Shown: in pieces, positions 1,803 through 27,396 of the stretch | How positions within the stretch are numbered: the first letter of the stretch is position 1 | Layout of the letters: each line of letters starts with the position of its first letter | Assembly (NCBI GenBank): GCA_016213405.1 | Contig: JACRAM010000092.1 | Location: forward strand, 1 to 38,030 | Reading direction: 5' to 3' | DNA length: 38,030 nucleotides | From: Bacteroidota bacterium | Lineage (GTDB): Bacteria; Bacteroidota; Bacteroidia; Palsa-948 | Position numbers and translations under genes: made by a program | The notes under the pieces: model-generated | The model's input: only the letters and a program-made list of their open reading frames with translations | What the model was told of the DNA's origin: nothing | Databases searched by the model: none

Positions 1803-2912
1803 ATGAAAGTTTTAAAGTTTCTTTTATTCCCATTTGCTTTTTTATATGGCGCGGTGATTTTTTTTCGCAACCTGGTGTACGACCTCGGCATTTTTCCTGT
1901 GAAGGAATTTGAAACGGGAATTATTGTGATTGGAAATCTTTCGGTTGGTGGAACAGGAAAATCCCCGATGACAGAATATTTGATTCGCCTTTTGAAAGAA
2001 AAATTTCCGCTTGCAACACTGAGTCGCGGCTACAAGCGCCACACAACAGGATTTCTTATAGCGGAAAACGATTCCACTTCCTTTCAGATTGGCGATGAAC
2101 CGCTTCAATTCAAAAAGAAATTTCCGGATGTGATTGTTTCGGTGGATGAGAACCGAAAGCACGGAATAAAAAAACTTCTTTCACAATTTCCTGAGCTAAA
2201 AGTTATTTTACTCGATGACGGCTTTCAGCACCGCAGGGTAAAAGCGGGATTAAGTATTTTGCTCAGCGATTACGAAAAAATGTTTTACGATGATTTTCTT
2301 CTGCCGGTGGGTTCGCTTCGCGAATGGAGAGCAGGGAAAAAGAGAGCGGACATCATCATCGTTACAAAATGCCCTGACAATCTATCTCCTGTGGAAAAAA
2401 GAATCATCCTGAAAAAAATAAATCCTGAACCGCACCAACAGGCGCTCTTCTCGCATGTCAGGTATGGAGAAATCAAGCCCATCCTAAATCCTTCCCCAAG
2501 GGAAGGACTTGACACACAATCTCCCTTCCCTTTGGGAAGGGATGGGGATGGGCTGGCTGTTATTCTCCTCACCGGTGTCTCAAATCCAAAACCTCTTGAA
2601 GATTATCTGAAAGATAAAGTCCAAAATATCATCCCTATCCATTATCCTGACCACCACGAATATACGATTTTGGAAGTAACGCAATTGGCAGAACGATTTA
2701 ACAGCATTACTTCTCAAAACAAAATCATCATCACCACTGAAAAAGACGCCATGCGTTTGGATAAACTCGGTCTGGTGGAAATTATCGGCAAGCTGCCAGT
2801 TTATTACATCCCGATTGAAGTTACGTTTGACGAAAAAGAAAAAGAAGAATTCAATAAACTCATAACCGATTATGTCATTAGAACAAATCAAAAGCACAGC
2901 AGAACACATTAA
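1803..2912 (+). CDS. lpxK: Tetraacyldisaccharide 4'-kinase LpxK
   Basis: LpxK phosphorylates the 4' position of the lipid A disaccharide at the inner membrane, the sixth step of the Raetz pathway. The N-terminus (MKVLKFLLFPFAFLYG) is a membrane-associating helix. A P-loop follows at residues 44-55 (GNLSVGGTGKSP), then the family stretch LSRGYKRHTTGF, GDEP, LDDGFQHRR and the C-terminal TTEKDAMRL. The frame is open upstream to an ATG at 1761, but those 14 residues are not family-like and lie over the 5' end of the divergent cyclase gene, so I chose the ATG at 1803 (369 aa). Residues of about 225-251 are a GC-rich repeat insertion (NPSPREG...PLGRDGDG) between the family segments YGEIKPI and AVILLTGVSNPKPL. 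The 3' end overlaps the next gene by 41 bp, suggesting cotranscription and coupling. Confidence 0.95.
   Translation: MKVLKFLLFPFAFLYGAVIFFRNLVYDLGIFPVKEFETGIIVIGNLSVGGTGKSPMTEYLIRLLKEKFPLATLSRGYKRHTTGFLIAENDSTSFQIGDEPLQFKKKFPDVIVSVDENRKHGIKKLLSQFPELKVILLDDGFQHRRVKAGLSILLSDYEKMFYDDFLLPVGSLREWRAGKKRADIIIVTKCPDNLSPVEKRIILKKINPEPHQQALFSHVRYGEIKPILNPSPREGLDTQSPFPLGRDGDGLAVILLTGVSNPKPLEDYLKDKVQNIIPIHYPDHHEYTILEVTQLAERFNSITSQNKIIITTEKDAMRLDKLGLVEIIGKLPVYYIPIEVTFDEKEKEEFNKLITDYVIRTNQKHSRTH
2476..2554 (+). repeat. Double-hairpin palindromic element inside lpxK
   Basis: A 79-bp element has AGCCCATCC at the left and GGATGGGCT at the right as inverted ends. Inside are two hairpins, CTTCCCCAAGGGAAG and CTCCCTTCCCTTTGGGAAGGGA. 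It is translated in a frame different from the aspS and cyclase copies (SPFPLGRDGDG) but has no stop codon. Confidence 0.8.
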
Positions 2913-3684
2913 AAGGCAAATTTCCATCACGCCCGAAGTGGGAATCATTCTCGGAACAGGGCTTGGCGGATTGGTGAAAGAAATTGAAATTCATAATACT
3001 CTTTCGTACGAAAGCATTCCGAATTTTCCTGTGAGCACGGTGGAAGGTCATTCGGGTAAATTGATTTTCGGCATTCTGGGAGGAAAAAAAGTGGTGGCGA
3101 TGCAGGGGCGTTTTCATTATTACGAAGGATACACGATGCATCAGGTTGTATTTCCGGTGCGGGTGATGAAATACCTCGGCATTAAAACTCTTTTTGTTTC
3201 CAACGCAAGCGGTGGCGTGAACCCCGGTTTTGAAATTGGCGATTTGATGATCATCACCGACCATATTAACCTCATGCCGAACCCTCTCATCGGAAAAAAC
3301 CTTTCCGAACTGGGCGTGCGCTTTCCTGACATGAGCGATGCGTATGATAAAGATTTAATTGCCAATGCAAAAGCGATTGCGAAAAAACACAACATAAAAG
3401 TTCAGCAGGGAATTTATGCGGGACTGACAGGACCCACACTTGAAACTCCTTCTGAATACAAATACATGCGCATCATCGGAGCCGACACTGTGGGCATGAG
3501 CACCGTACCCGAAGTGATTGCCGCGCATCACATGAACATTACCTGCTTTGCCATGAGCATTATCACCGATGTGGGCGTGGAAGGCAGGATTGTAAAAACC
3601 ACGCACGAAGATGTGCAGCGAGCTGCGGAAAAAGCCGAGCCGCTGATGACAAAAATCATGAAGGAACTGGTGGAGGGACTGTAA
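2872..3684 (+). CDS. punA: Purine nucleoside phosphorylase (trimeric, PNP/MTAP type)
   Basis: The enzyme cleaves purine nucleosides with phosphate to the free base and ribose-1-phosphate in cytosolic purine salvage. At 270 aa it is full length for the trimeric class. Visible motifs are GIILGTGLGG at 25-33 (phosphate loop), VEGHSGKLIFG, QGRFHYYEGY, SNASGGVNP, GPTLETPSEY and GMSTVPEVIAAHH. The ATG at 2872 lies inside the end of lpxK (41-bp overlap in another frame). The start is supported by MSLEQIKSTAEHIK, which matches the expected N-terminal helix. Substrate range (inosine/guanosine versus other nucleosides) is not resolved by sequence reading. A long repeat array follows. Confidence 0.94.
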   Translation: MSLEQIKSTAEHIKRQISITPEVGIILGTGLGGLVKEIEIHNTLSYESIPNFPVSTVEGHSGKLIFGILGGKKVVAMQGRFHYYEGYTMHQVVFPVRVMKYLGIKTLFVSNASGGVNPGFEIGDLMIITDHINLMPNPLIGKNLSELGVRFPDMSDAYDKDLIANAKAIAKKHNIKVQQGIYAGLTGPTLETPSEYKYMRIIGADTVGMSTVPEVIAAHHMNITCFAMSIITDVGVEGRIVKTTHEDVQRAAEKAEPLMTKIMKELVEGL

Positions 3685-4114
3685 AAACAAAGCAAACAAT
3701 CGAACTTTTGAAGTTATCCATCGCATTTCTCTGCTAAACCGGATTACTAATTTTGTTTTCCGGATTACCTCGCTGGTAAACCAGATAACAAAAGAAGTAA
3801 GGCAGATAACCTCATTAGTAATCCGGATTACCTCAGAGGTAAACCAGTTTAACAGATTAGCAAACCAGATTAGCAGATAAGTAAACCAGATTACAAAATA
3901 AGTAAACCAGATTACTTCTGAGGTACGATAGATTACATCTCATGTATCATAAATCAGCAGAAAACAATACTACACCTATAAAATAATAGATTTTTGATGC
4001 TTTTTTATGTTCTGGATGTTTTCAGCTTTACGGTAAATATACCCTGCACAGTTGTGCTGTTATTGGCGGAAGAACTTACATGCTACTCACATACGAAGCG
4101 CAACTTCGCGATTT
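3685..4114. other. 430-bp gene-free interval between punA and a small membrane protein gene
   Basis: Most of the interval is taken by the 21-bp-period array at 3734-3957. After it, 3958-4114 is A/T-rich. The only ATG frames there (such as 3994-4179 +) overlap the 3' end of the convergent gene and look random. I see no RNA gene. Confidence 0.7.
3734..3957. repeat. Degenerate tandem array, exact 21-bp period, 11 units
   Basis: The unit is a 14-bp core near GTAAACCAGATTAC followed by 7 variable bases. Cores start at 3734, 3755, 3776, 3797, 3818, 3839, 3860, 3881, 3902, 3923 and 3944, so every step is exactly 21 with no indel despite strong sequence divergence. The core is dyad symmetric; the unit at 3818 (GTAATCCGGATTAC) is a perfect palindrome. 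In one forward frame the units read as heptads (VNQITKE, VRQITSL, VIRITSE), but that frame has stops in the last four units. The reverse-strand frame (VIWFTYF and similar) is open from about 3942 but has no ATG until 3726. Confidence 0.9.
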
Positions 4115-4330
4115 CTATTGGGTTGATTTTTTCTTGTGCATTAAAATATAAACGATTGGTAAAATACCTACTGTGTTGATAAGAGCAATGCAAATAAACC
4201 AAACAAGATGATTGTTCCGACCTGCTTTCCACATGGCAATTAATTTCCAAATTGCTTCCCAAATTGAAAGGATGATTATTACCGGCAAAAGCCAAGCTAA
4301 TATTTCGTGCAGATGTTGAAGTTTTTCCAT
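4115..4330 (-). CDS. Small two-helix membrane protein, DUF5652-like
   Basis: This 71-aa protein starts MEKLQHLHEI. It has two hydrophobic helices, about residues 12-33 (WLLPVIIILSIWEAIWKLIA) and 43-63 (LVWFICIALINTVGILPIVY), separated by a short basic loop WKAGRNNH, and ends in a lysine-rich tail. The pattern of W-E-x-x-W-K in helix 1 and N-T-x-G-I-L-P in helix 2 is what I associate with DUF5652, a family of unknown function. It lies 12 bp downstream of the preceding minus-strand gene and may be the last cistron of that operon. An overlapping frame at 4083-4295 is a shadow. Confidence 0.75.
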   Translation of the reverse strand: MEKLQHLHEILAWLLPVIIILSIWEAIWKLIAMWKAGRNNHLVWFICIALINTVGILPIVYILMHKKKSTQ

Positions 4331-4342
4331 TTTGATTTGGGG

Positions 4343-5608
4343 TTAATTGATTATTAATTTATCCGTTGCAATGACCTCATAGCCCCCTCCCCCGATGCTC
4401 CGATTGGGGCAAGCCTGTGTCCCTCCCCCGCTGGAAGAGGGATTGATGGAGAGGCGAATGAAGTATAGCCCGCTTGGAAGATTGTCGCGCGTGAGAGTAA
4501 CCGTCTGCCCATTAATATTTTTTATTTGTTTTACTACCTGCCCGAATGAATTGTAAACTGTGAGGGTTGCGTTTGTTAAATAATTGTCTGTATGCAAAGT
4601 TGTTTGGGAAGAAAAGGGATTGGGAAACAGAATTATCGAATTCTCAATATTATTTTCATTCACCGTCATATACGCATCAACAAAAAAATTATCTATGTAT
4701 AAGTTGTTTTCACAATCTGTCGTGTATCGAAATTTAAAAAGTACAGATTGACCACTCCACTGCATAAGAGGAGGTCCAATATATGTTTGTGCCCAGTCGG
4801 AAAATTTCGGAACAAATTCATTTGTATCAAAAGAAGGTATGCCTGTTACCAGTTGAGCAGCATATTGTTTCCATATTGATGACCATGTGCTGCCGCAATC
4901 AGCCGATATAAAAAGTTCAAGTGTATCCATATAAACAGGATTCAAAACGGGGTCAGTATATTTTTTATCTGCATAACTAAAAGATACTTCTGGATATGTA
5001 CCGAGTACAACTGGTGGAGAAATAATTTCATCCACTTGACCTTTTGCAGATATGTTGTAATGGAAGTTATCCATGTATAATGAATATTTGTCAACCGTAT
5101 CAACAAACATAGTATCCCAAGTAATGCTGCTATCATAATTTATTATCTGCCATCCTTCGGGAGGGAATACTGAAACATTAAAGTTTTCAGGCATTTGAAG
5201 ATCATAAGGATAAAAGAATGTGCTAACGGAAGTATCATTTGCGGAATTCATATCATTTCCGCTGTTTGGATTGCTTGAATAACATGTAAATGTGTGACTA
5301 CTTCCAGGAAATGTATTCATGTAATTCAATGTAACATTAACAGCTTGATTTGCCAGCAGAGAACCATTCCAATTGTAAGTTTGCAGTGGATTGTTATCAA
5401 AACGATAGTTGATAACACATGACAAAAGAGTAGTGGGTCCAAAATTTTTCAAAACTACATTCGGATAAAATCCAGTAGGCTGCGAGCAAATATTTCCATT
5501 TGGAATTAGAATGCCGGTTATTCCAATATCAATGGACGCAAACAAAAAGTTTGTATGCGCAGTTGTCAAGGTAAAAGCAATTGTCAAGCCGAGAAGAATT
5601 TTTTTCAT
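4343..5608 (-). CDS. Secreted protein with T9SS type A sorting domain
   Basis: The 421-aa protein begins with a signal peptide (MKKILLGLTIAFTLTTAHT). Residues of about 27-135 form a beta-rich domain resembling bacterial CARDB-type modules (VVLKNFGPTTLLSC). About 145-325 looks like a MAM/choice-of-anchor J beta-sandwich (PPEGWQIINYDS, DEIISPPV, LELFISADCGSTW, LFKFRYTTDCENNLYIDNF). The C-terminal sorting domain starts near 333 (ILFPNPFSS) and has LPSGLYFIRLS and a terminal KLIIN. A GC-rich repeat of about 25 residues is inserted in that domain, 12 residues from the end. In T9SS cargo this domain directs outer-membrane export and is usually removed. The gene starts 5 bp after the stop of the upstream giant gene, so the two are probably cotranscribed. 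The substrate is unknown. Confidence 0.85.
   Translation of the reverse strand: MKKILLGLTIAFTLTTAHTNFLFASIDIGITGILIPNGNICSQPTGFYPNVVLKNFGPTTLLSCVINYRFDNNPLQTYNWNGSLLANQAVNVTLNYMNTFPGSSHTFTCYSSNPNSGNDMNSANDTSVSTFFYPYDLQMPENFNVSVFPPEGWQIINYDSSITWDTMFVDTVDKYSLYMDNFHYNISAKGQVDEIISPPVVLGTYPEVSFSYADKKYTDPVLNPVYMDTLELFISADCGSTWSSIWKQYAAQLVTGIPSFDTNEFVPKFSDWAQTYIGPPLMQWSGQSVLFKFRYTTDCENNLYIDNFFVDAYMTVNENNIENSIILFPNPFSSQTTLHTDNYLTNATLTVYNSFGQVVKQIKNINGQTVTLTRDNLPSGLYFIRLSINPSSSGGGTQACPNRSIGGGGYEVIATDKLIIN
4381..4455 (-). repeat. Palindromic element inside a T9SS sorting domain
   Basis: About 75 bp, AGCCCCCTCCC at one end and GAGGC at the other, with two imperfect G/C hairpin halves around a CAAGCCTGTGT spacer. 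It is more degenerate than the aspS copy. On the coding strand it gives a Gly/Ser-rich stretch (PSSSGGGTQACPNRSIGGGG) with no stop. Confidence 0.65.
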
Positions 5609-5613
5609 TGTAT

Positions 5614-8600
5614 TTATTTATTAATTATGATTTTCTTAGTAATTATTCCTTGCTCTGTTTTTAGGTGTAGGAAATAAATGCCGCTGGATTGAGAAGACAA
5701 ATCAATTTGCTGATGTGCAGATGTGCAGATTTGCTGATAAATACATTCTCCATACACATTATAGATTTTCATCTGCACATTTTCAAATCTACTCATCTGC
5801 ATATTGAAAACTCCGCTTGTGGGATTAGGATAAATTGAGTATTGAGTATTAAGTATTGAGTATTGAGAAATGCCTATAGGAAAAAGAACCGTAACAAAAT
5901 CGCAAACAGAACAACCGTTAGCATCCGTTACGCAAACCGTATAAGTTCCAACACAAAGTCCGATTGCTGACGCAGTTGTTTGTCCGCCCGGCAGCCACAT
6001 GTACGTATAAGGAGAGGTTCCTCCTGAATGCGCAGCGCTTGCGCTTCCATCACAACAGGAGATACAACTGGCGTCAACGGAAGAAGCTGTATCTATCAAA
6101 ACCGATGGTTCCGCTACATTAAATACTCCTGTTGCGCTGCATCCTCCGGCATCCGTTACAATAACGGTATAGCTGCCGGCTATTAATCCGGATAAATCCT
6201 GGGTTGTGTTTCCGTTTGACCATGTATAACCGAGCGGTGGATTTCCACCAACAACTGAAATATAAATTTCTCCATCACTGCCTCCATAGCAGGAAACATC
6301 AAAAGTGGAATCAACATTAATTATCATTGCTGACGGGTCAGTTATGGTTACTGTTGCAAAAGCCATACATCCGTTGGCATCAGTTATTATCACAGTATGA
6401 GGACCGGACGGAATGTTTGTAATGTCTTCTGTTGTTTGACCTCCCGGATTCCACAAATAAGTGTAAGCGCCTGTTCCTCCGCTGGCGCTGATATAAATTG
6501 CACCATCGCTTCCCGAGCAAACAGTAACATTGTTTGTTGAATCAACCAACATTGCAATTGCCGATGGCTCATTGATGGTATCGCTTACGGTGGCAGTGCA
6601 CCCATTGGCATCTGTAATGGTTACCGTATAAACTCCGGCAGTTACATTGCTCAAATCTCCTGAAGTTTGTCCGCTAGGATTCCATGAATAGGTGTAAGGA
6701 GAAGTTCCACCGCCCGCTGTTGTGAAAATGAAACCATCACTTCCTCCATTACAAGAAACATCCCGGATGGAATCTATAGTTATCGCCAATACAGCAGGCT
6801 CAGTAATAGTCACTGAACCGGAAGCGGTGCAACCGTTTGCATCTGTAATATCCACCGTGTAAGAACCGGACACAAGCGCGCTCACATCTTCAGTAGTTGC
6901 TCCGCCCGGATTCCAGATACATGTGTAAGGAGGTGTTCCGCCAGTTACGGTAAGGTCAGCCGAGCCATCGCCTGCTCCGTTGCAGGAAATATTTGTTCCG
7001 GCAATTCCCGAACCAAGAACTGCGGGCTGTGTTACAGAAACGGTGCTCGCTGCTGTACAGTTATTTGCATCTGTCACTATTACAGTATACGTTCCTGCAC
7101 ATAAACCTGTACACGATACAAGTGTGCAACCGCTTGACCATGCATAAGTATAAGCAGGAGTTCCACCGGATGCGGATGCAGTTACTGAGCCATCACACAT
7201 TCCATTGCACGAAACATTTGTTACGGTGATGGAAGGAGTAAGCGGTGCAGGTTGTGTTATCACTGCCACAGCGGTATCGGTGCATCCATTTGCATCGGTG
7301 CCGGTCATTGTATAATTTCCAGCGCATAGATTTATGAAGGCAGTAGTGGTTTGCCCGCCAGGAAACCATGAATAAGTATAAGGTGCAAGTCCTCCTGCAG
7401 GACAAACACTCGCAGAGCCATCGCACACTCCGTTGCAGGAAACATTTGTGCTGGAGCAAATCGAAAATACTACCGCACCAACGTTTCCTACTGTTGCGGT
7501 GGTTGTAGCAGTACATCCGATAACATCCGTGACAGTTACGGAATAATTTCCCGGAGCCAGTGAAGTTGCGGCAGAAGTCGTTTGTCCGCCCGGGTTCCAC
7601 AAATATGTGTAGGGATTATTTCCTCCCGAAGCAGAAACAGCAGCAGAACCAAGCGCAATGCAGGTGGCAGGCGTTGAACTTGAAGAAAGATTTATTTTAG
7701 TTATCGAAATATTTTTTGTGACGGAAGAAACGCATCCGTTCAAATTAACTGTGAGAATAACCTGATAAGTTCCAATTGCTGTATAGGTATGTGTAGGATT
7801 CTGAAGCGTGGAAGTATTTCCATCGCCAAGATCCCAAGCCCATGAAGCAGGTGTGGGCGAAGAAGCATCCGTGAAGGATGTTGTATTTCCAAAGCAGGTA
7901 GAAGCAAAAGTAAAGTCGGGCGTGGAACCATCGCTGATACCGATGACTTGCGTTATGGTGTCGCCACCGCATCCATTGCTGGCTATCAACGTAACGGTGT
8001 AGGTGCCGGATGAAGCATACGCATGAACAGCATTCTGGATGGAATCAATTCCCCCATCGCCAAAATCCCAATAGTAATCAGTCGCGCTGAAACTGAATGA
8101 AGAGAAATTAATAGTGGTGCCTGGGCAGGCGGTTGCGGGCCAGTAAAAAAGAGATGCCGATGGCACGTTGCCATAAGTAACATGCACTCCTGCAGAATAG
8201 GTAGCAAAATTTCCGCAGAGGTTGGTTACGGTCACTGACACAATGTAAGTTCCTGTATCGGCAAAAGGATGAGATGGATTCACGAGCGTTGACGTGTTGC
8301 CATCTTCAAAATCCCAAAACACAGAAGTGGTATCAGAACTAAAATTGTTAAACTGAACTGGCGTATCGGGACATACCGCCCCCGGAATGCAGCCGAAACC
8401 GTAACAAAAAAAGGCAGACGGGATGACATTATTCGCAACGCTCAAACATTTTTTGATGGTGGCGGTTCCCCCGCAGGAACTGATGGCAATAAGCGTAACG
8501 GTGTAACTGCCTGTTGCCGTATAGCTGTGTGTTGGATTCATTGCCGTTGAAGTTCCGGCATCGCCAAAATTCCAGCTCCAACTCACTCCGTTCACAGTTG

Positions 8601-9756
8601 CGTTTGTAAAATAAACAACAGCGCCCGGGCAGATTTGTGAAAACCCCGAGCAATTAGCAAAAGGCGTAAACGAGAAATTTGCTATGGGAGGAGCATTAGC
8701 CAATACCCTTATCACAATTGTTTTGTTGGCAGAATTTCCGCAGCCGTTTGTTCCGGTGAAAGTGACCGTATACGTTCCCAGCGATGAATAGGAATGTTTC
8801 GGGTTTTGCTGAAGCGATGTGTTGCCATCGCCAAAATTCCAGAGGAAACTTGTGAGATTGGTTCCGCCTCCTGCAAAAGCAATTGTATCATTGATGCAAA
8901 CGGTATCATTGCCGGCAGTGGCGCTTACGGTTGGCACAATGGTATTGGTGACAGCCACTGTTTTATAAATGGTTGTGTCGTTACAGCCATTGTCAACGGT
9001 CATGCTCACCGTGAATGTGCCAAGGGCAGTATAGGAATGGGCTGTGTTCAATGTGAATGCTGAATCGCCATCTCCAAAGGTCCAGACCGTGCTGACGGGA
9101 GTTGGGAAACTGGAGTTCGAGAATGCTACCATTGTGCTGGGGCAGGCAGGAGTGGGAGAAACAAAAAAACTTGGCATGGGAGGAGGAGCGTTTGCGCTAA
9201 CTGTTACAGCGACAGTATCTGCATCGCTTCCGCAGGCATTGCCGGCTGTGAGAACGACCGAATACGTTCCGGGCGCTGCGTAATTATGGGTGGGCGTAAA
9301 TAAACCCGAACTGTCACCATCTCCAAAATCCCATATCACAAACGAAGGAGGCATGAACATAAAATTGAAATCGGTGAACGTGATGCCGGTGCCAAAGCAA
9401 ACCGGACTTGCAGGAGCTATGTTAAACATGGCATACCATGTGGCGGGAACACCGGTAACATACAGGGATTTTATAATCACGCTGCTATCTCCCGAACCGG
9501 TATTATATACTGTGAGTTTTACATTAAACGCAGCCGACCAGCCATATAAATGCTTAGAGTTGGTAGCAGTATCAACGGGTGAAAAATCACCGAAGTTCCA
9601 TCGGGATGAATCATAACCCGAGCTGAGGTTGGTGAAATATACCGTATCCCCCATGCAGATGGTTCCCGTTGGAGTGAATGAAAAACTTGCTACGGGCTGG
9701 GCGGTGGAGATGATGGTTGCTGATAGTAAAATGATGAGGGAGAATAATTTTTTCAT
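5614..9756 (-). CDS. Giant surface protein: 8 PKD domains, 8 SprB repeats, T9SS type A sorting domain
   Basis: This is predicted to be a long secreted adhesin-like filament. I start it at the ATG at 9756 (1380 aa), because MKKLFSLIILLSATIISTAQ is a clean signal peptide; the 18 codons upstream look non-coding. Eight PKD domains follow, recognisable by WxFGDG...NPxHxYxxxGTYTVxL, to about residue 690. Eight SprB-type repeats follow (VSCNGxxDGS...GGTxPYTYxW...GGQTT...GxYTVxVTDANGC) to about 1300. Last is a type A sorting domain (YPNPTSGVFN...SGIYFLHL...KKIIINK). SprB repeats are known from the Flavobacterium gliding adhesin SprB. It heads a probable three-gene minus-strand operon. The linker before the sorting domain and the domain itself contain short direct repeats. 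The ligand is unknown. Confidence 0.9.
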   Translation of the reverse strand: MKKLFSLIILLSATIISTAQPVASFSFTPTGTICMGDTVYFTNLSSGYDSSRWNFGDFSPVDTATNSKHLYGWSAAFNVKLTVYNTGSGDSSVIIKSLYVTGVPATWYAMFNIAPASPVCFGTGITFTDFNFMFMPPSFVIWDFGDGDSSGLFTPTHNYAAPGTYSVVLTAGNACGSDADTVAVTVSANAPPPMPSFFVSPTPACPSTMVAFSNSSFPTPVSTVWTFGDGDSAFTLNTAHSYTALGTFTVSMTVDNGCNDTTIYKTVAVTNTIVPTVSATAGNDTVCINDTIAFAGGGTNLTSFLWNFGDGNTSLQQNPKHSYSSLGTYTVTFTGTNGCGNSANKTIVIRVLANAPPIANFSFTPFANCSGFSQICPGAVVYFTNATVNGVSWSWNFGDAGTSTAMNPTHSYTATGSYTVTLIAISSCGGTATIKKCLSVANNVIPSAFFCYGFGCIPGAVCPDTPVQFNNFSSDTTSVFWDFEDGNTSTLVNPSHPFADTGTYIVSVTVTNLCGNFATYSAGVHVTYGNVPSASLFYWPATACPGTTINFSSFSFSATDYYWDFGDGGIDSIQNAVHAYASSGTYTVTLIASNGCGGDTITQVIGISDGSTPDFTFASTCFGNTTSFTDASSPTPASWAWDLGDGNTSTLQNPTHTYTAIGTYQVILTVNLNGCVSSVTKNISITKINLSSSSTPATCIALGSAAVSASGGNNPYTYLWNPGGQTTSAATSLAPGNYSVTVTDVIGCTATTTATVGNVGAVVFSICSSTNVSCNGVCDGSASVCPAGGLAPYTYSWFPGGQTTTAFINLCAGNYTMTGTDANGCTDTAVAVITQPAPLTPSITVTNVSCNGMCDGSVTASASGGTPAYTYAWSSGCTLVSCTGLCAGTYTVIVTDANNCTAASTVSVTQPAVLGSGIAGTNISCNGAGDGSADLTVTGGTPPYTCIWNPGGATTEDVSALVSGSYTVDITDANGCTASGSVTITEPAVLAITIDSIRDVSCNGGSDGFIFTTAGGGTSPYTYSWNPSGQTSGDLSNVTAGVYTVTITDANGCTATVSDTINEPSAIAMLVDSTNNVTVCSGSDGAIYISASGGTGAYTYLWNPGGQTTEDITNIPSGPHTVIITDANGCMAFATVTITDPSAMIINVDSTFDVSCYGGSDGEIYISVVGGNPPLGYTWSNGNTTQDLSGLIAGSYTVIVTDAGGCSATGVFNVAEPSVLIDTASSVDASCISCCDGSASAAHSGGTSPYTYMWLPGGQTTASAIGLCVGTYTVCVTDANGCSVCDFVTVLFPIGISQYSILNTQYSIYPNPTSGVFNMQMSRFENVQMKIYNVYGECIYQQICTSAHQQIDLSSQSSGIYFLHLKTEQGIITKKIIINK
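5706..5867. repeat. Short word-like direct repeats in the 3' end of the giant gene
   Basis: Two kinds are seen. At 5706-5738 and 5771-5802 the words GCAGATGTGCAGAT, TTTGCTGAT and ATCTGCA recur in both orientations; these encode ICTSAHQQI and neighbours. At 5835-5867 the 7-base word GTATTGA (one copy GTATTAA) is tandemly repeated, encoding QYSILNTQYSI just before the sorting domain. All are in frame. Confidence 0.8.
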
Positions 9757-9844
9757 GAGGGAATTTTTAGGTGAATGATAACAATGGAATTTTTTACGTA
9801 CAAAAATCAATATAGTTACAATTTTTTAAGGATATTTTTATTTG

Positions 9845-9871
9845 CCCCGTTGGAATTATTTTCCTACGGGG
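9845..9871. other. Strong hairpin between divergent genes
   Basis: CCCCGT-T-GGAA-TTAT-TTCC-T-ACGGGG forms a 10-bp stem with one T/T mismatch and a TTAT loop. It sits in the 161-bp region between the divergent starts at 9756 and 9918, where a terminator would not be expected. It could be a leader structure, an operator or another dispersed palindrome. Confidence 0.55.
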
Positions 9872-9917
9872 TTTGCCATCTCGGATTTTTCTCCTAAGTT
9901 CGCTCAAAATTTAACAG

Positions 9918-11426
9918 ATGAAAAAACTTAACAAGAAAGTACAATGTACGATGTACGATGTGCGATTTACCATCAAACGAATTTTATTTCTCTGCATTTT
10001 ACCTTGTACCTTGCACCTTGTACCTTGTACCTTTTCTTTTGCCCAATATTCTTCTCAAAACATTTCTTTACTTTCTAAATGGGACAATCCGGCAACTGTT
10101 TCTGAACCTTATTACGCAATCCGCTACAACAGCGTGTGGGGATGGGCTGACCCGCAGGACAATAAAGAGTACGCCATCATCGGCTCAACAGACGGAACGT
10201 ATTTCATTGATGTGACTGTTCCCACTGCTCCGGTGGTGCGGGATTATGTTAAAGGAAGAAGAGATTCCTGCATCTGGCGCGAATACAAAACTTACCAGAA
10301 CTATCTTTATGCGGTGAGTGATGACGCGGTGAATGCAAACAATCAGAACAGCATTCAGATAATTGACATGAGTCCGCTTCCCGATTCAGTTCATGTAGTA
10401 TACGACAAGAACATTCTTGTTTCGCGCTCACATTCTATTTTTATTGACGAAGCAAATGCCACCATGTATCTGAACAGCGTATATCTTCCCAACAACGGTG
10501 GTCATTCCAACATGGCGGTGTTCGACATTTCAAGTCCGGCAAATCCGGTTTTGCTGAGAAGGTTGGAACAGGACTATCCATCTAACGATAATGTGCATGA
10601 CTGTTTTGTGAAAAACGATACCTGCTATGCTTCTTCTTCCTGGAGCGGTTTATTTATTTACAAATTAAATCCCAGCGACACGCTCACGCAAATCGGCTCT
10701 ATAACTAATTACGAACCCGGAGGTGCTTACAACCATAACAGCGCTCTCACGGCAGACAGCAAAACGCTCATCTTTGCGGATGAAGTGCCGGCAAATCTTA
10801 CGGCAAAATCTGTTGATGTTTCCAACTTCTCCAATCTTGCCATCGTAGATAACTTCCGCTCAACTCCAACAACCACTGCTACTCCTCATAATGTTTTTAT
10901 CCCGAACGGAAGCAGCGCGCGCTCGGTGATTTCATATTATCAGGATGGGGTTCAGATTTTTGATATCTCCAATCCTTCCAATGTTACGCGGTCAGGATTT
11001 TTTGATACGGCTCCGACAAATTGTCCAACCTGCCCCAATCCTGATTACTCAGGCTGCTGGGGCGCTTATGTTGATTTGCCCAGCGGCACTCTTCTTGCCA
11101 GCGATATGCAGGATGGTTTGTTTGTGCTTGACGCAAGCGCAGCAATGGGAGTTACACCTATAGCGCCAACTGAAATTTCGGTGGATGTATTTCCTAATCC
11201 TTTCACAAATAATTTCCAGATTAATTTCTCACTCCCTTCAGGAGAAACTTTTTCTTACGAACTCACCGACATTACCGGAAAATTGATTGTAAAAAAACAA
11301 ATGGATGTTCCTTCAGGAAAAACATCCTTTACCATTGATGGAAAAAATCTCAGCACAGGAGCCTACATGTTAAGCATGAAGGCAGAAAGCATTTCTCTCA
11401 CAAAAAAACTAATCAAGACAAAATAA
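9918..11426 (+). CDS. Choice-of-anchor B / LVIVD-repeat surface protein with T9SS type A domain
   Basis: This 502-aa secreted protein has about 350 residues of beta-propeller-like LVIVD repeats. Recognisable pieces are YAIIGSTDGTYFIDVTVPT, LYAVSDDA...IQIIDMS, MAVFDISSPANPVLL, SARSVISYYQDGVQIFDIS and LLASDMQDGLFVLD. The sorting domain starts near 430 (VFPNPFTNNFQ) and ends GAYMLSM...KKLIKTK. Family members are extracellular; the ligand is unknown. The ATG at 9918 is kept because the signal peptide (residues 1-43) is continuous from it, but that peptide is unusual: both its basic and hydrophobic parts contain short repeats (CTMYDVR, PCTLHLVPCTF). The M16 peptidase gene follows after 33 bp on the same strand, so they may share a transcript. 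Confidence 0.85.
   Translation: MKKLNKKVQCTMYDVRFTIKRILFLCILPCTLHLVPCTFSFAQYSSQNISLLSKWDNPATVSEPYYAIRYNSVWGWADPQDNKEYAIIGSTDGTYFIDVTVPTAPVVRDYVKGRRDSCIWREYKTYQNYLYAVSDDAVNANNQNSIQIIDMSPLPDSVHVVYDKNILVSRSHSIFIDEANATMYLNSVYLPNNGGHSNMAVFDISSPANPVLLRRLEQDYPSNDNVHDCFVKNDTCYASSSWSGLFIYKLNPSDTLTQIGSITNYEPGGAYNHNSALTADSKTLIFADEVPANLTAKSVDVSNFSNLAIVDNFRSTPTTTATPHNVFIPNGSSARSVISYYQDGVQIFDISNPSNVTRSGFFDTAPTNCPTCPNPDYSGCWGAYVDLPSGTLLASDMQDGLFVLDASAAMGVTPIAPTEISVDVFPNPFTNNFQINFSLPSGETFSYELTDITGKLIVKKQMDVPSGKTSFTIDGKNLSTGAYMLSMKAESISLTKKLIKTK
9938..10034 (+). repeat. Two short tandem-word arrays within a signal-peptide coding region
   Basis: 9938-9969 repeats a GTACAATGTACGATGTACGAT-like word of about 8 bases. 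10000-10034 repeats TACCTTGTACC/TTGCACCTTG, about 5-11 bases. Both are translated in the signal peptide of the LVIVD protein. Confidence 0.8.
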
Positions 11427-11459: not shown

Positions 11460-14363
11460 ATGAAAACAAATTTTTTCTTTTCTATTTTAATCCCTGTACT
11501 TATCGGGGCAATTGCTTTTTCTTTTATCCCGAATCAAAACAAACCTCAGACAGAATCAGGAGCAAAACTGATTGAGAAAGTTTCAAAAAAATCTGGCGAA
11601 CTTATTATCCCCTACGAAAAATGGCGGTTATCCAACGGACTTACCATTGTAATTCACGAAGACCATTCTGACCCGATTCTTTATTTTGATGTAACCTATC
11701 ATGTGGGTTCAAACCGGGAACAAGTAGGGCGCTCGGGCTTCGCGCATTTTTTTGAGCACATGATGTTTCAGGGTTCTGACCACGTGGCGGATGAAGAACA
11801 TTTTAAAACAGTTTCTGAAGCGGGCGGAACGCTGAACGGTTCTACCAATTTTGACCGCACCAATTATTTCGAAACCGTTCCTTCAAACTATATGGAGAGA
11901 ATGATGTGGCTTGAATCAGACCGCATGGGGTTTTTGCTGGATGCAGTGACACAGCCAAAGTTTGAAGTGCAACGCGCCACCGTGAAAAACGAACGCGGGC
12001 AGAATTACGACAACCGTCCTTACGGATTGGCATTTGAAAAAACACTGGAAGCTATTTTCCCTTACGGGCATCCTTATTCATGGAGCACGATTGGTTATAT
12101 TGAAGATCTGAACCGCGTGGATGTGGGCGACTTAAAAAGATTTTTCCTCCGTTGGTACGGTCCGAACAATGCAACGCTTACCGTTGCCGGAGATGTGAAG
12201 CCCGCAGAAGTAATTAAGTATGCTGAAAAATATTTTGGTTCTATTCCAAAAGGTCCTGAAGTGAAAAATATTGCGAAACAAATTGCAGTGCTCGACAAAG
12301 ACCGGTATATTTCCTATGAAGACAATATCCGCTTTCCGATGCTGATGGTTACATTTCCTTCCGTTCCTGCTTATGATAAAGACGAAGCCGCTCTGGATGC
12401 GCTTGCTTCTATTCTGGCGGAAGATAAAAACTCCATCTTCTACCAGAATTTTGTAAAGAAGCAAATGGCGTATGACGCGAGCATAAATAATTTTTCAAGC
12501 GAAGTGGCAGGAATGTTATTTTTTCAGATTCGTTCCCTGCCGGATAAAGCCAAAACAACAAATCCCAAAGAACCTTTTTATAATTCACTGGCAGAAACAG
12601 AAGCGCTCATGAAATCTTCACTGGCTGAATTTGAAAAACGAGGTGTGACCGATGATGATTTGAAAAAGTTCAAGGCGAATTATGAGTCACGCACCATTCA
12701 GTCACTGAGCAGCGTGAGAGGCAAGGGCGCTCAGCTGGCAGCGTATCAGACATTCACCGGCAACGCGAATCAAATCAAAGCAGATATGGATCGCTACATG
12801 AAAATCACGAAAGAAGATGTGATGCACGTGTACAATCAATATGTAAAAGGCAAGCCCGCAGTTTATCTGAGCATTGTTCCGAAAGGGAAATCAAGCATCA
12901 TTGCCAAGCCCAATGATTTTGAACCGCACATAAAAAATCCTGAAGACGGAAAAGAAAGCGCAGAGTATAAAAATCTGGTTTACAATAAAGCGAAAGATAA
13001 CCTGGACAGAAGCAAAAAACCGGGCTCAGGTCCCAACCCTGTAATTAAAGTTCCTGCACTCTGGACAGAAACTTTTCCGAACGGCTTGAAAGCAATCGGC
13101 ATGAAGAACGATGAAATTCCTACAGTAAATATTACTGTCTCCATGGAAATCGGTCACCGCGCAGACGAACTTTCAAAAGCCGGTCTTTCTTTCCTCACCG
13201 CATCTTTAATGGAAGAATCAACCAAGATGCACTCTGCAGAAGAAATTTCAGATATGCTTAACCTTCTGGGAAGCGATATTTCATTCAGCGCTGATGAAGA
13301 AGAAATTACTATGAATATTTCTTCGCTCACAAAAAATCTGGATGCCACTTTGAAAATTGCAAATGAAATTCTTTTCCAGCCGAAATTTGATCAGGAAGAT
13401 TTTGACCGCCTGAAGGAAGAACAAATGCAAACTATTTCCAATCAGGCAACACAGCCCGTAGTGATTGCGAATAATGTTTACAAAAAACTTCTGTATGGAA
13501 AAGGTCATATTCTCTCCACTCCAATCGTAGGAACTAAAGAATCTGTTTCCTCACTCACGCTGGATGATGTGAAAAATTTTTACGCAAATAATTTTTCTCC
13601 TTCCATTGCCAAACTGGTGGTAGCAGGCGATGTCAGCAAGGAATCTGTCCTCCCGAAATTTGATTTTCTGAAATCATGGCAGGCAAAAGAAGTTAAGAAA
13701 ACAGAACAGCCAGCAGTTCCTGTAATTGACAAAACAAGAATTTATTTTGTAAACAAAGACAACGCACCCCAATCGGAGGAGCGCATCGGGTACATTGCCT
13801 TGCCTTTTGATGCTGTGGGCGAATATTACCGTACTACTTTAGTAAATTATGTTTTGGGCGGAGCGTTCAACAGCCGCATCAATATTAATCTCCGCGAAAC
13901 AAAAGGATGGACTTACGGAGCGCGTTCTGGTTTTTCAGGAACAAAATATGCCGGTCCGTTCACTGCACAGGGTGGAATCAAAGGCGATGCAACTGACAGC
14001 GCCATTGTGGAGTTTATGAAAGAAATAAAAATGTATGCGGATGCGGGAATTAAAGATGATGAACTTGCGTTCACAAAAAGTTCTATCGGGCAGCAGGACG
14101 CACTCAAGTACGAAACCAACGGACAAAAAGCAGGATTTGTAAAACGTATTCTTGATTATAACCTCACAAAAGATTTTGTAGACAAACAGCAGGAGATTTT
14201 AAAAAATATTTCCAAAGCGGAGATTGATGCGATTGCCAAGAAAAATCTTCCGTACAATAATATGGTTATCGTGGTGGTAGGCAATCGCGCAAAACTTTTC
14301 GACCGCATTAAAGCACTCGGATACGAAGTGGTGGAACTGGATGCGGATGGAAATCAACTGTAA
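11460..14363 (+). CDS. Two-domain M16 (pitrilysin-family) zinc metallopeptidase
   Basis: This is a 967-aa secreted or periplasmic insulinase-type peptidase. Residues 1-23 look like a signal peptide or lipid-less anchor (FFFSILIPVLIGAIAFSFIP). The first M16 unit has the inverted zinc motif HFFEH at 96-100 and the distant ligand Glu in NERGQNYD (E178). The second half (from about 530) repeats the fold: AGLSFLTASLMEES at the place of the zinc motif has lost its ligands, while ETKGWTYGARSG keeps the Arg/Tyr element typical of the inactive half. The arrangement is the usual fused active plus inactive M16 pair forming a closed chamber that degrades peptides. No sorting domain is seen at the C-terminus (VVELDADGNQL), so it probably stays periplasmic. 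A palindromic element begins directly at the stop codon. Confidence 0.93.
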   Translation: MKTNFFFSILIPVLIGAIAFSFIPNQNKPQTESGAKLIEKVSKKSGELIIPYEKWRLSNGLTIVIHEDHSDPILYFDVTYHVGSNREQVGRSGFAHFFEHMMFQGSDHVADEEHFKTVSEAGGTLNGSTNFDRTNYFETVPSNYMERMMWLESDRMGFLLDAVTQPKFEVQRATVKNERGQNYDNRPYGLAFEKTLEAIFPYGHPYSWSTIGYIEDLNRVDVGDLKRFFLRWYGPNNATLTVAGDVKPAEVIKYAEKYFGSIPKGPEVKNIAKQIAVLDKDRYISYEDNIRFPMLMVTFPSVPAYDKDEAALDALASILAEDKNSIFYQNFVKKQMAYDASINNFSSEVAGMLFFQIRSLPDKAKTTNPKEPFYNSLAETEALMKSSLAEFEKRGVTDDDLKKFKANYESRTIQSLSSVRGKGAQLAAYQTFTGNANQIKADMDRYMKITKEDVMHVYNQYVKGKPAVYLSIVPKGKSSIIAKPNDFEPHIKNPEDGKESAEYKNLVYNKAKDNLDRSKKPGSGPNPVIKVPALWTETFPNGLKAIGMKNDEIPTVNITVSMEIGHRADELSKAGLSFLTASLMEESTKMHSAEEISDMLNLLGSDISFSADEEEITMNISSLTKNLDATLKIANEILFQPKFDQEDFDRLKEEQMQTISNQATQPVVIANNVYKKLLYGKGHILSTPIVGTKESVSSLTLDDVKNFYANNFSPSIAKLVVAGDVSKESVLPKFDFLKSWQAKEVKKTEQPAVPVIDKTRIYFVNKDNAPQSEERIGYIALPFDAVGEYYRTTLVNYVLGGAFNSRININLRETKGWTYGARSGFSGTKYAGPFTAQGGIKGDATDSAIVEFMKEIKMYADAGIKDDELAFTKSSIGQQDALKYETNGQKAGFVKRILDYNLTKDFVDKQQEILKNISKAEIDAIAKKNLPYNNMVIVVVGNRAKLFDRIKALGYEVVELDADGNQL

Positions 14364-27078: not shown

Positions 27079-27378
27079 TTATTGATTTTTTATCAGATTT
27101 TCAACTCCTGAAGTCCAAAACTCATTTCCTGAACTTCGGAACTCAACTCCTGAGCTTCCGAACGCAACTCCGGAGCTTGAGAATTCAACTTTGGAGCTTC
27201 GGATTTCAGTTCTGAAGTTCCGAACCTGTGTTCTGAACTTCCCGACAAGGGTTTGGAAGTTCCCGACTTGTGTTTTTAAGTTCAGGAGAAGCCTTCTGAA
27301 GTTCCAAAGTTCTGTTTTTAACTTACAAACCTGCATTTTGAAGTTCTTGGCTTTAATTCTGAACTTATTTCTATGCAT
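27079..27378 (-). CDS. Candidate heptad-repeat small protein encoded by a 21-bp array
   Basis: A 99-codon frame with an ATG at 27378, 7 bp past the stop of the upstream gene on the same strand. The peptide is nearly all seven-residue units: LKTELWN, FRRLLLN, LKTQVGN, FQTLVGK, FRTQVRN, FRTEIRS, SKVEFSS and SGVEFRS. In the N-terminal half hydrophobics sit at positions 1 and 5, the a/d spacing of a coiled coil; toward the C-terminus the pattern decays to SSG-rich units. No signal peptide. It could be a real coiled-coil protein translated by reinitiation, or a chance open frame, because a 21-bp period keeps one frame stop-free easily. The similar array at 3734 has stops in its heptad frame, which argues for caution. 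Confidence 0.35.
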   Translation of the reverse strand: MHRNKFRIKAKNFKMQVCKLKTELWNFRRLLLNLKTQVGNFQTLVGKFRTQVRNFRTEIRSSKVEFSSSGVAFGSSGVEFRSSGNEFWTSGVENLIKNQ

Positions 27379-27396
27379 TTTTTAGTTATTTCACCG
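27103..27396. repeat. Degenerate tandem array, exact 21-bp period, 13-14 units
   Basis: Units begin at 27103, 27124, 27145, 27166, 27187, 27208, 27229, 27250, 27271, 27292, 27313, 27334, 27355 and 27376, with no indel. The best consensus core is TTCTGAASTTCCGAA, in which GAA-S-TTC is dyad symmetric, with G or C at the centre. The last unit runs into the stop codon of the 1090-aa surface protein gene. Sequence is unrelated to the first array but period and design are the same. Confidence 0.9.

Follow-up and report, generated by a model that had tools for sequence, protein, structure and literature searches.

Introduction

Unit lengths normally vary from one tandem array to the next. In plasmid iterons, direct repeats about two helical turns long are bound by protein on one face, and REP/BIME elements are clustered, species-specific extragenic palindromes. 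In Bacteroidota, the BrickBuilt MITE of Porphyromonas gingivalis is an intergenic element built of imperfect head-to-tail units without spacers; its units measure 23 nt, near two turns, it forms one dispersed family with a leader, a tail and terminal inverted repeats, and 22-, 23- and 41-nt repeats are mentioned for strain W83 (PMC4596501). Borg elements contain many locus-specific intergenic tandem arrays that were formed independently, with units that are near-perfect, A-rich and present in genes too; only 14-38% of the intergenic unit lengths are divisible by three (PMC9879509). Intergenic minisatellites, REP clusters and tandem-repeat MITEs are already known.

Here, we describe a tandem array (array A) in a 38,030-nt window, the whole stretch of DNA that was analysed, which is one contig (C92) of a 3.65-Mb Bacteroidota genome in 127 contigs (G000). 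Like BrickBuilt, array A is intergenic and consists of imperfect head-to-tail units of comparable, two-turn length. Unlike that dispersed family, it is near-unique in sequence and shows neither terminal inverted repeats, leader and tail nor dispersed copies; no inverted repeat stands out as bracketing it, and the arrays found in this genome are for the most part mutually unrelated. Array A also differs from REP/BIME elements in not being one dispersed high-copy palindrome, arrays of its motif being found only in C92 and a second contig, C38, in 3.65 Mb, and from CRISPR in that its units follow one another without a break at 21 bp and their spacers measure only 7 bp. Known from sequence alone, it can be likened to plasmid iterons for its two-turn direct repeats; unlike iterons, it has no replication gene beside it (inspection of the window ORFs by eye revealed no replication initiator gene), and an estimated hundred arrays per chromosome, with units unrelated in sequence, occur here. 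Unlike the tandem repeats of Borg elements, the arrays of this genome are dominated by one unit length and are often diverged yet in register (PMC9879509).

We found no description of a 21- or 22-bp lock in the open-access literature searched; an exact two-turn lock that unrelated sequences share genome-wide is apparently undescribed there, and so are genome-specific palindromes on a strict 22-bp lattice. One genome keeps one unit length of two helical turns over mostly unrelated sequences, the value being lineage-specific (21 or 22 bp). Such a single length calls either for a factor that reads bacterial intergenic DNA and is sensitive to spacing or for a mechanism of duplication that has its own ruler, and both readings are directly testable.

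Array A keeps an exact 21-bp register

The first-pass annotation had described, downstream of punA, eleven near-palindromic cores spaced by exactly 21 bp (Table 1). The spacing was confirmed: TRF reported positions 3776-3915 with period 21, 6.7 copies and 0% indels, direct 21-bp matching reached z=16.7 in 168-bp windows, and in a wrap-around alignment 61 substitutions were counted while the array body was free of indels, the only two gaps lying at the 3' edge. Ten units are clear in the 21-bp register, from 3734 to about 3957, while the eleventh (GTATCATAAATCAG at 3944) is weak and barely recognisable. Sub-periods such as 7 or 10-11 were looked for inside the unit and none was found. Array A is a two-turn phased array in exact 21-bp register in non-coding DNA.

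Table 1. Features of the window referred to in the text.
Feature	Position	Strand	Remarks
punA, purine nucleoside phosphorylase	2872..3684	+	array A begins 50 bp past its stop
Array A, 21-bp tandem array	3734..3957	.	about 11 units, core GTAAnCCrGATTAC plus variable spacer; TRF, register alignment, dyad test
First fold-back of array A (I1)	3728..3837; arms 3728-3771 and 3794-3837	.	44 nt, 73% complementary; cores and spacers covered
Perfect 14-bp palindrome GTAATCCGGATTAC	3818..3831	.	most symmetric unit of array A; sequence
Second fold-back of array A (I3)	3818..3936; arms 3818-3851 and 3903-3936	.	34 nt, 74% complementary
Convergent gene beyond array A, secreted protein	4343..5608	-	C-terminus looks like a putative T9SS sorting domain, a resemblance inferred by eye
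Array B, second 21-bp array	27101..27381	.	TTCnGAAnTTCnGAA type, sequence unrelated to array A; dyad p=0.0003

Symmetry was assessed by permuting the 21 columns with all units used, so that tandem structure and composition were kept. By this test the self-complementarity of array A exceeds the null (p=0.0003, z=4.0), which places it in a dyad-symmetric subclass; arrays A and B are among the strongest dyads of the 55 arrays tested. A consensus-only test had given no enrichment for array A (p=0.32); it missed the symmetry because it had too little power, and was dropped for column permutation. Period statistics from inverted matching alone were left out of the results, since copies of one unit are not independent. 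Each unit has two dyad axes, half a period apart. One unit is a perfect palindrome, as had been described, but the near-palindromic character of the core is softer than stated, since in the most frequent unit, GTAAACCAGATTAC, just 5/7 positions pair.

The association of array A with punA is incidental, because four congeners (G001, G004, G005 and G006) have no array after this gene. In G001, punA is directly followed by an M16 peptidase gene, which in the window sits at 11460; array A therefore lies within a species-specific stretch. Window positions 3685-9900, between punA and the M16 peptidase gene, are absent in G001 and hold minus-strand secreted-protein genes. Period-21 arrays are nevertheless also present in the congeners G001, G005 and G006, and the turnover of arrays is rapid.

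Two-turn arrays are numerous in the genome

Arrays were sampled in 1.16 Mb of the genome, about a third of it, taken in stretches. TRF arrays of at least 60 bp had a period of 21, 42, 63 or 84 in 39 of 61 cases. After ORFs of at least 200 aa had been excluded and neighbours merged, 31 arrays with a period of 21 (or 42/63) were left, most of them unrelated to each other in unit sequence; this number extrapolates to about 100 in the whole genome. Outside long ORFs the period was 21 in 26/33 arrays, and 200 kb of E. coli contained no such array. A search for other 21-bp arrays in the genome and its relatives, proposed in the first-pass annotation as a check, thus found them in number. They occur in convergent, tandem and divergent gaps, with no preference for convergent ones; near-identical arrays coexist with heavily diverged ones, and higher-order units of 42 or 63 bp are common.

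Units from different arrays are no more alike than permuted units (mean best pairwise similarity 0.303 versus 0.296), which rules out a motif common to all arrays of this genome. There are only small families, array A with C38 and L068 with L172, the array at C38:1380-1651 being the one clear exception that has the array A motif. In a whole-genome pattern search this motif was clustered only in C92 and C38, with other matches near the control count, so that it is ruled out as a genome-wide operator; a DNA search of the genome with the array A element returned one copy. By column permutation, 9/40 tested period-21 arrays showed a dyad at p<0.05, and 31/40 did not (p>=0.05).

Wrap-around alignment of the 31 arrays gave 1576 substitutions and 85 gap events, of which about ten are uncompensated; most gaps are insertion-deletion pairs a few bases apart that compensate each other, so that the lattice is restored. 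In neutral bacterial DNA, small indels occur at about 1/10 of the substitution frequency or somewhat less. Indels being scarce against this expectation, the lattice looks constrained, which is suggestive but not proof.

Array B sits downstream of a gene for a large secreted PKD-type protein. Its motif had 36 pattern matches against 2 in the control, and the eight matches inspected outside the window lie within ORFs, with no 21-bp array. The sample of this genome also contains recurring palindromic 12-mers, CCTTCCCGAAGG (13 copies) and GGGCTAAAGCCC/GGGCTGAAGCCC (9 and 6), which may be dispersed hairpins.

Palindromes lie on a 22-bp lattice in Bacteroidaceae

A sample of 80 Bacteroidota loci, the majority from Bacteroidaceae, had a period of 22 in 14/25 arrays, 21 in 6 and 23 in 2, and about 490 kb from 27 other families of the class yielded only five arrays. 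Dyads at p<0.05 were found in 11/15 tested 22-bp arrays, as against the 9/40 for 21-bp arrays. Whole-genome searches showed that some of these palindromes are abundant and genome-specific: AAACGCAAGGGCGTTT had 233 matches in G041 (control 2) and 158 in G042 (control 1) but no more than 5 in the other genomes that were searched, CGCAACATGTTCCG had 702 in G040 (control 42) and GTGCCAAAGGCTTGGCAC had 66 in G043 (control 0), these counts being strand hits, so that one near-palindrome may count twice. Among listed palindrome sites at most 150 bp apart, 109/110 distances are multiples of 22 bp. Loci with genome-specific palindromes are L104 (4811-4943), L102 (6746-6877), L124 (1448-1570 and 16220-16310) and L098 (6857-6925); the palindrome of L123 is local, not genome-wide.

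The Bacteroidaceae palindromes match REP/BIME elements in their high copy number. They differ from them in the strict lattice of 22 bp (21 bp in the genome under study) and in a site upstream of sppA that recurs with its sequence replaced. Arrays of 22 or 23 bp lie upstream of sppA at nine loci (L094, L098, L099, L102, L104, L114, L115, L123 and L124) and differ in sequence between species. Such upstream arrays were found for 9/27 sppA genes versus 17/164 other genes with a comparable gap (Fisher p=0.004, the gene having been chosen post hoc). The Bacteroidales locus L128 (3903-6309) carries a 24-bp array of a quite different type, along with 8-bp repeats (GGGTTACC, GACTTTCA).

A spacing-sensitive protein platform is the preferred reading

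Array A belongs to the phased intergenic arrays of two turns (21 bp) that occur in this genus, and within them to the dyad-symmetric subclass; the above findings suggest, with a probability of roughly 0.4, that it works as a multi-site protein platform. As part of this explanation, the Bacteroidaceae counterpart of the dyad-symmetric 21-bp subclass would be the palindrome arrays with a 22-bp period. Most likely, a dimeric DNA-binding protein of an architectural or nucleoid type would occupy successive palindromes on one helix face. Contacts between neighbouring proteins would need exact two-turn spacing, so that substitutions would be tolerated and frame-shifting indels would not. In-register unequal exchange would lengthen and shorten the arrays, giving rise to the 42- and 63-bp higher-order units, and array sequence would turn over quickly. 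We infer the protein, and what it might do, from the period lock, dyads, register, non-coding nature and turnover that were observed.

The dominant period counts in favour of this platform (21 bp in 26/33 arrays here and 22 bp in 14/25 of the Bacteroidaceae-rich sample, with none in E. coli), as do the kept register, the dyads, the genome-wide 22-bp palindromes and the recurrence at sppA. Our tentative view is that a spacing-sensitive dimer best explains the two-turn lock, the dyads and the high-copy Bacteroidaceae palindromes together. Counting against it are the lack of a common motif, the 31/40 period-21 arrays without a dyad at p<0.05, the self-complementarity of the variable spacers, which would be superfluous for a dimer that binds the core, and the absence of the array beside punA in four sister species. 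Same-face protein binding on array A is therefore plausible but unproven. Cooperative binding or nucleoid organisation, as the annotation had proposed, keeps its basis in the phased palindromes, but with a motif confined to C92 and C38, few dyads elsewhere and self-complementary spacers it is one of three live explanations and is not established.

A broader version of the platform, which we hold to be rather unlikely, would extend it to all Bacteroidia: phased palindrome arrays would be recognised by a dimeric DNA-binding protein that evolves rapidly, each genome having its own palindrome on a strict two-turn lattice (21 or 22 bp by lineage), and at conserved sites such as that upstream of sppA the sequence would be replaced wholesale without a change in position, period or symmetry. 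The lattice of Bacteroidaceae, which comprises hundreds of palindrome copies, occurs in well-studied gut bacteria, in which chromatin and expression experiments are practical.

Duplication, folding and coding as alternatives

A strong rival to protein binding is duplication measured out by a two-turn ruler, or else a role in folding, because most 21-bp arrays of this genome have neither a dyad nor a common motif. In the first case, slippage or template switching, perhaps at hairpins, would duplicate arbitrary intergenic DNA in two-turn steps; the arrays would be functionless minisatellites, the dyad arrays would be those that fold, and fold-back copying would keep their arms complementary. Such an origin is possible, though less likely than not. 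A unit length that is fixed over mostly unrelated sequences, the scarcity of dyads, the mixture of fresh and decayed arrays and the frequent 42/63-bp units all agree with it; it would explain the quick turnover seen in the absence of array A from congeners, and Borg elements offer a precedent for tandem repeats that arise independently (PMC9879509). On its own, however, it leaves unexplained the rarity of small indels in strongly diverged arrays, the occurrence of one palindrome at hundreds of Bacteroidaceae loci on a 22-bp lattice and the recurrence upstream of sppA.

In the second case, arrays that are transcribed or single-stranded, such as those in untranslated regions, would form long hairpins, and selection would act on the fold instead of the sequence. 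The predicted RNA fold of array A is more stable than that of dinucleotide shuffles (z=-6.3 on the + strand and -6.7 on the - strand) and of column permutations (z=-3.4 on one strand and -5.0 on the other; 0/60 permutations as stable), and 52/63 pairs in the predicted folds share one dyad axis modulo 21. When the 8 columns of lowest conservation, the spacers, were scrambled, folding was abolished (z=-5.5, 0/200), whereas re-dealing spacers between units changed little (z=-1.0). Since spacer scrambling removes the fold and the arms of the fold-backs span cores and spacers, the symmetry of array A is a property of the whole 21-bp unit, beyond the 14-bp core. Spacer scrambling likewise destroyed folding in most dyad arrays tested, and shuffling within columns lowered fold stability in arrays A, B, C38, L083, L104 and L114. 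A selected fold would explain these observations, including the spacer complementarity. Against it, no consistent sense-strand advantage or G-U asymmetry was found, the arrays lie in gaps of all three orientations, and most 21-bp arrays fold no better than their column-permuted versions. Array A contains no terminator-type site and belongs to no known Rfam family; Rfam gave no match anywhere in the window, and only tRNAs in six related loci. We thus consider selection for folding unlikely.

A decayed or active heptad-coding repeat, which the annotation had offered as its alternative since multiples of three (21, 42 and 63) keep the frame, is highly improbable: although one frame is open in many arrays, which for a unit of 21 bp is what chance predicts, every frame of arrays A, B and C38 is interrupted by stops (4, 11, 6, 6, 3 and 11 in the six frames of array A) and their variability follows no codon-position pattern (0.31/0.35/0.36 by position modulo 3 in array A), and the Bacteroidaceae counterpart has a period of 22 bp, not a multiple of three. 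Conservation by codon position had been named as the observation that would tell against the palindromic core; with none seen, and other arrays being numerous, the heptad alternative fails and the phased-palindrome reading survives.

Repeats of other kinds occur within coding sequence. In the window, the heptamers ATTGAGT, GTACGAT and TACCTTG are tandemly repeated at 5834-5867, 9939-9970 and 10000-10033, yielding peptides such as QYSILNTQYSI and CTMYDVRFT. Long ORFs elsewhere in this genome carry coding repeats of 36, 45 or 81 bp with a collagen-like look (GPTGPT/NGTNG type), at L184 950-4946, L187 2754-3269, L189 1774-2077, L200 12900-13343 and L204 1655-1940.
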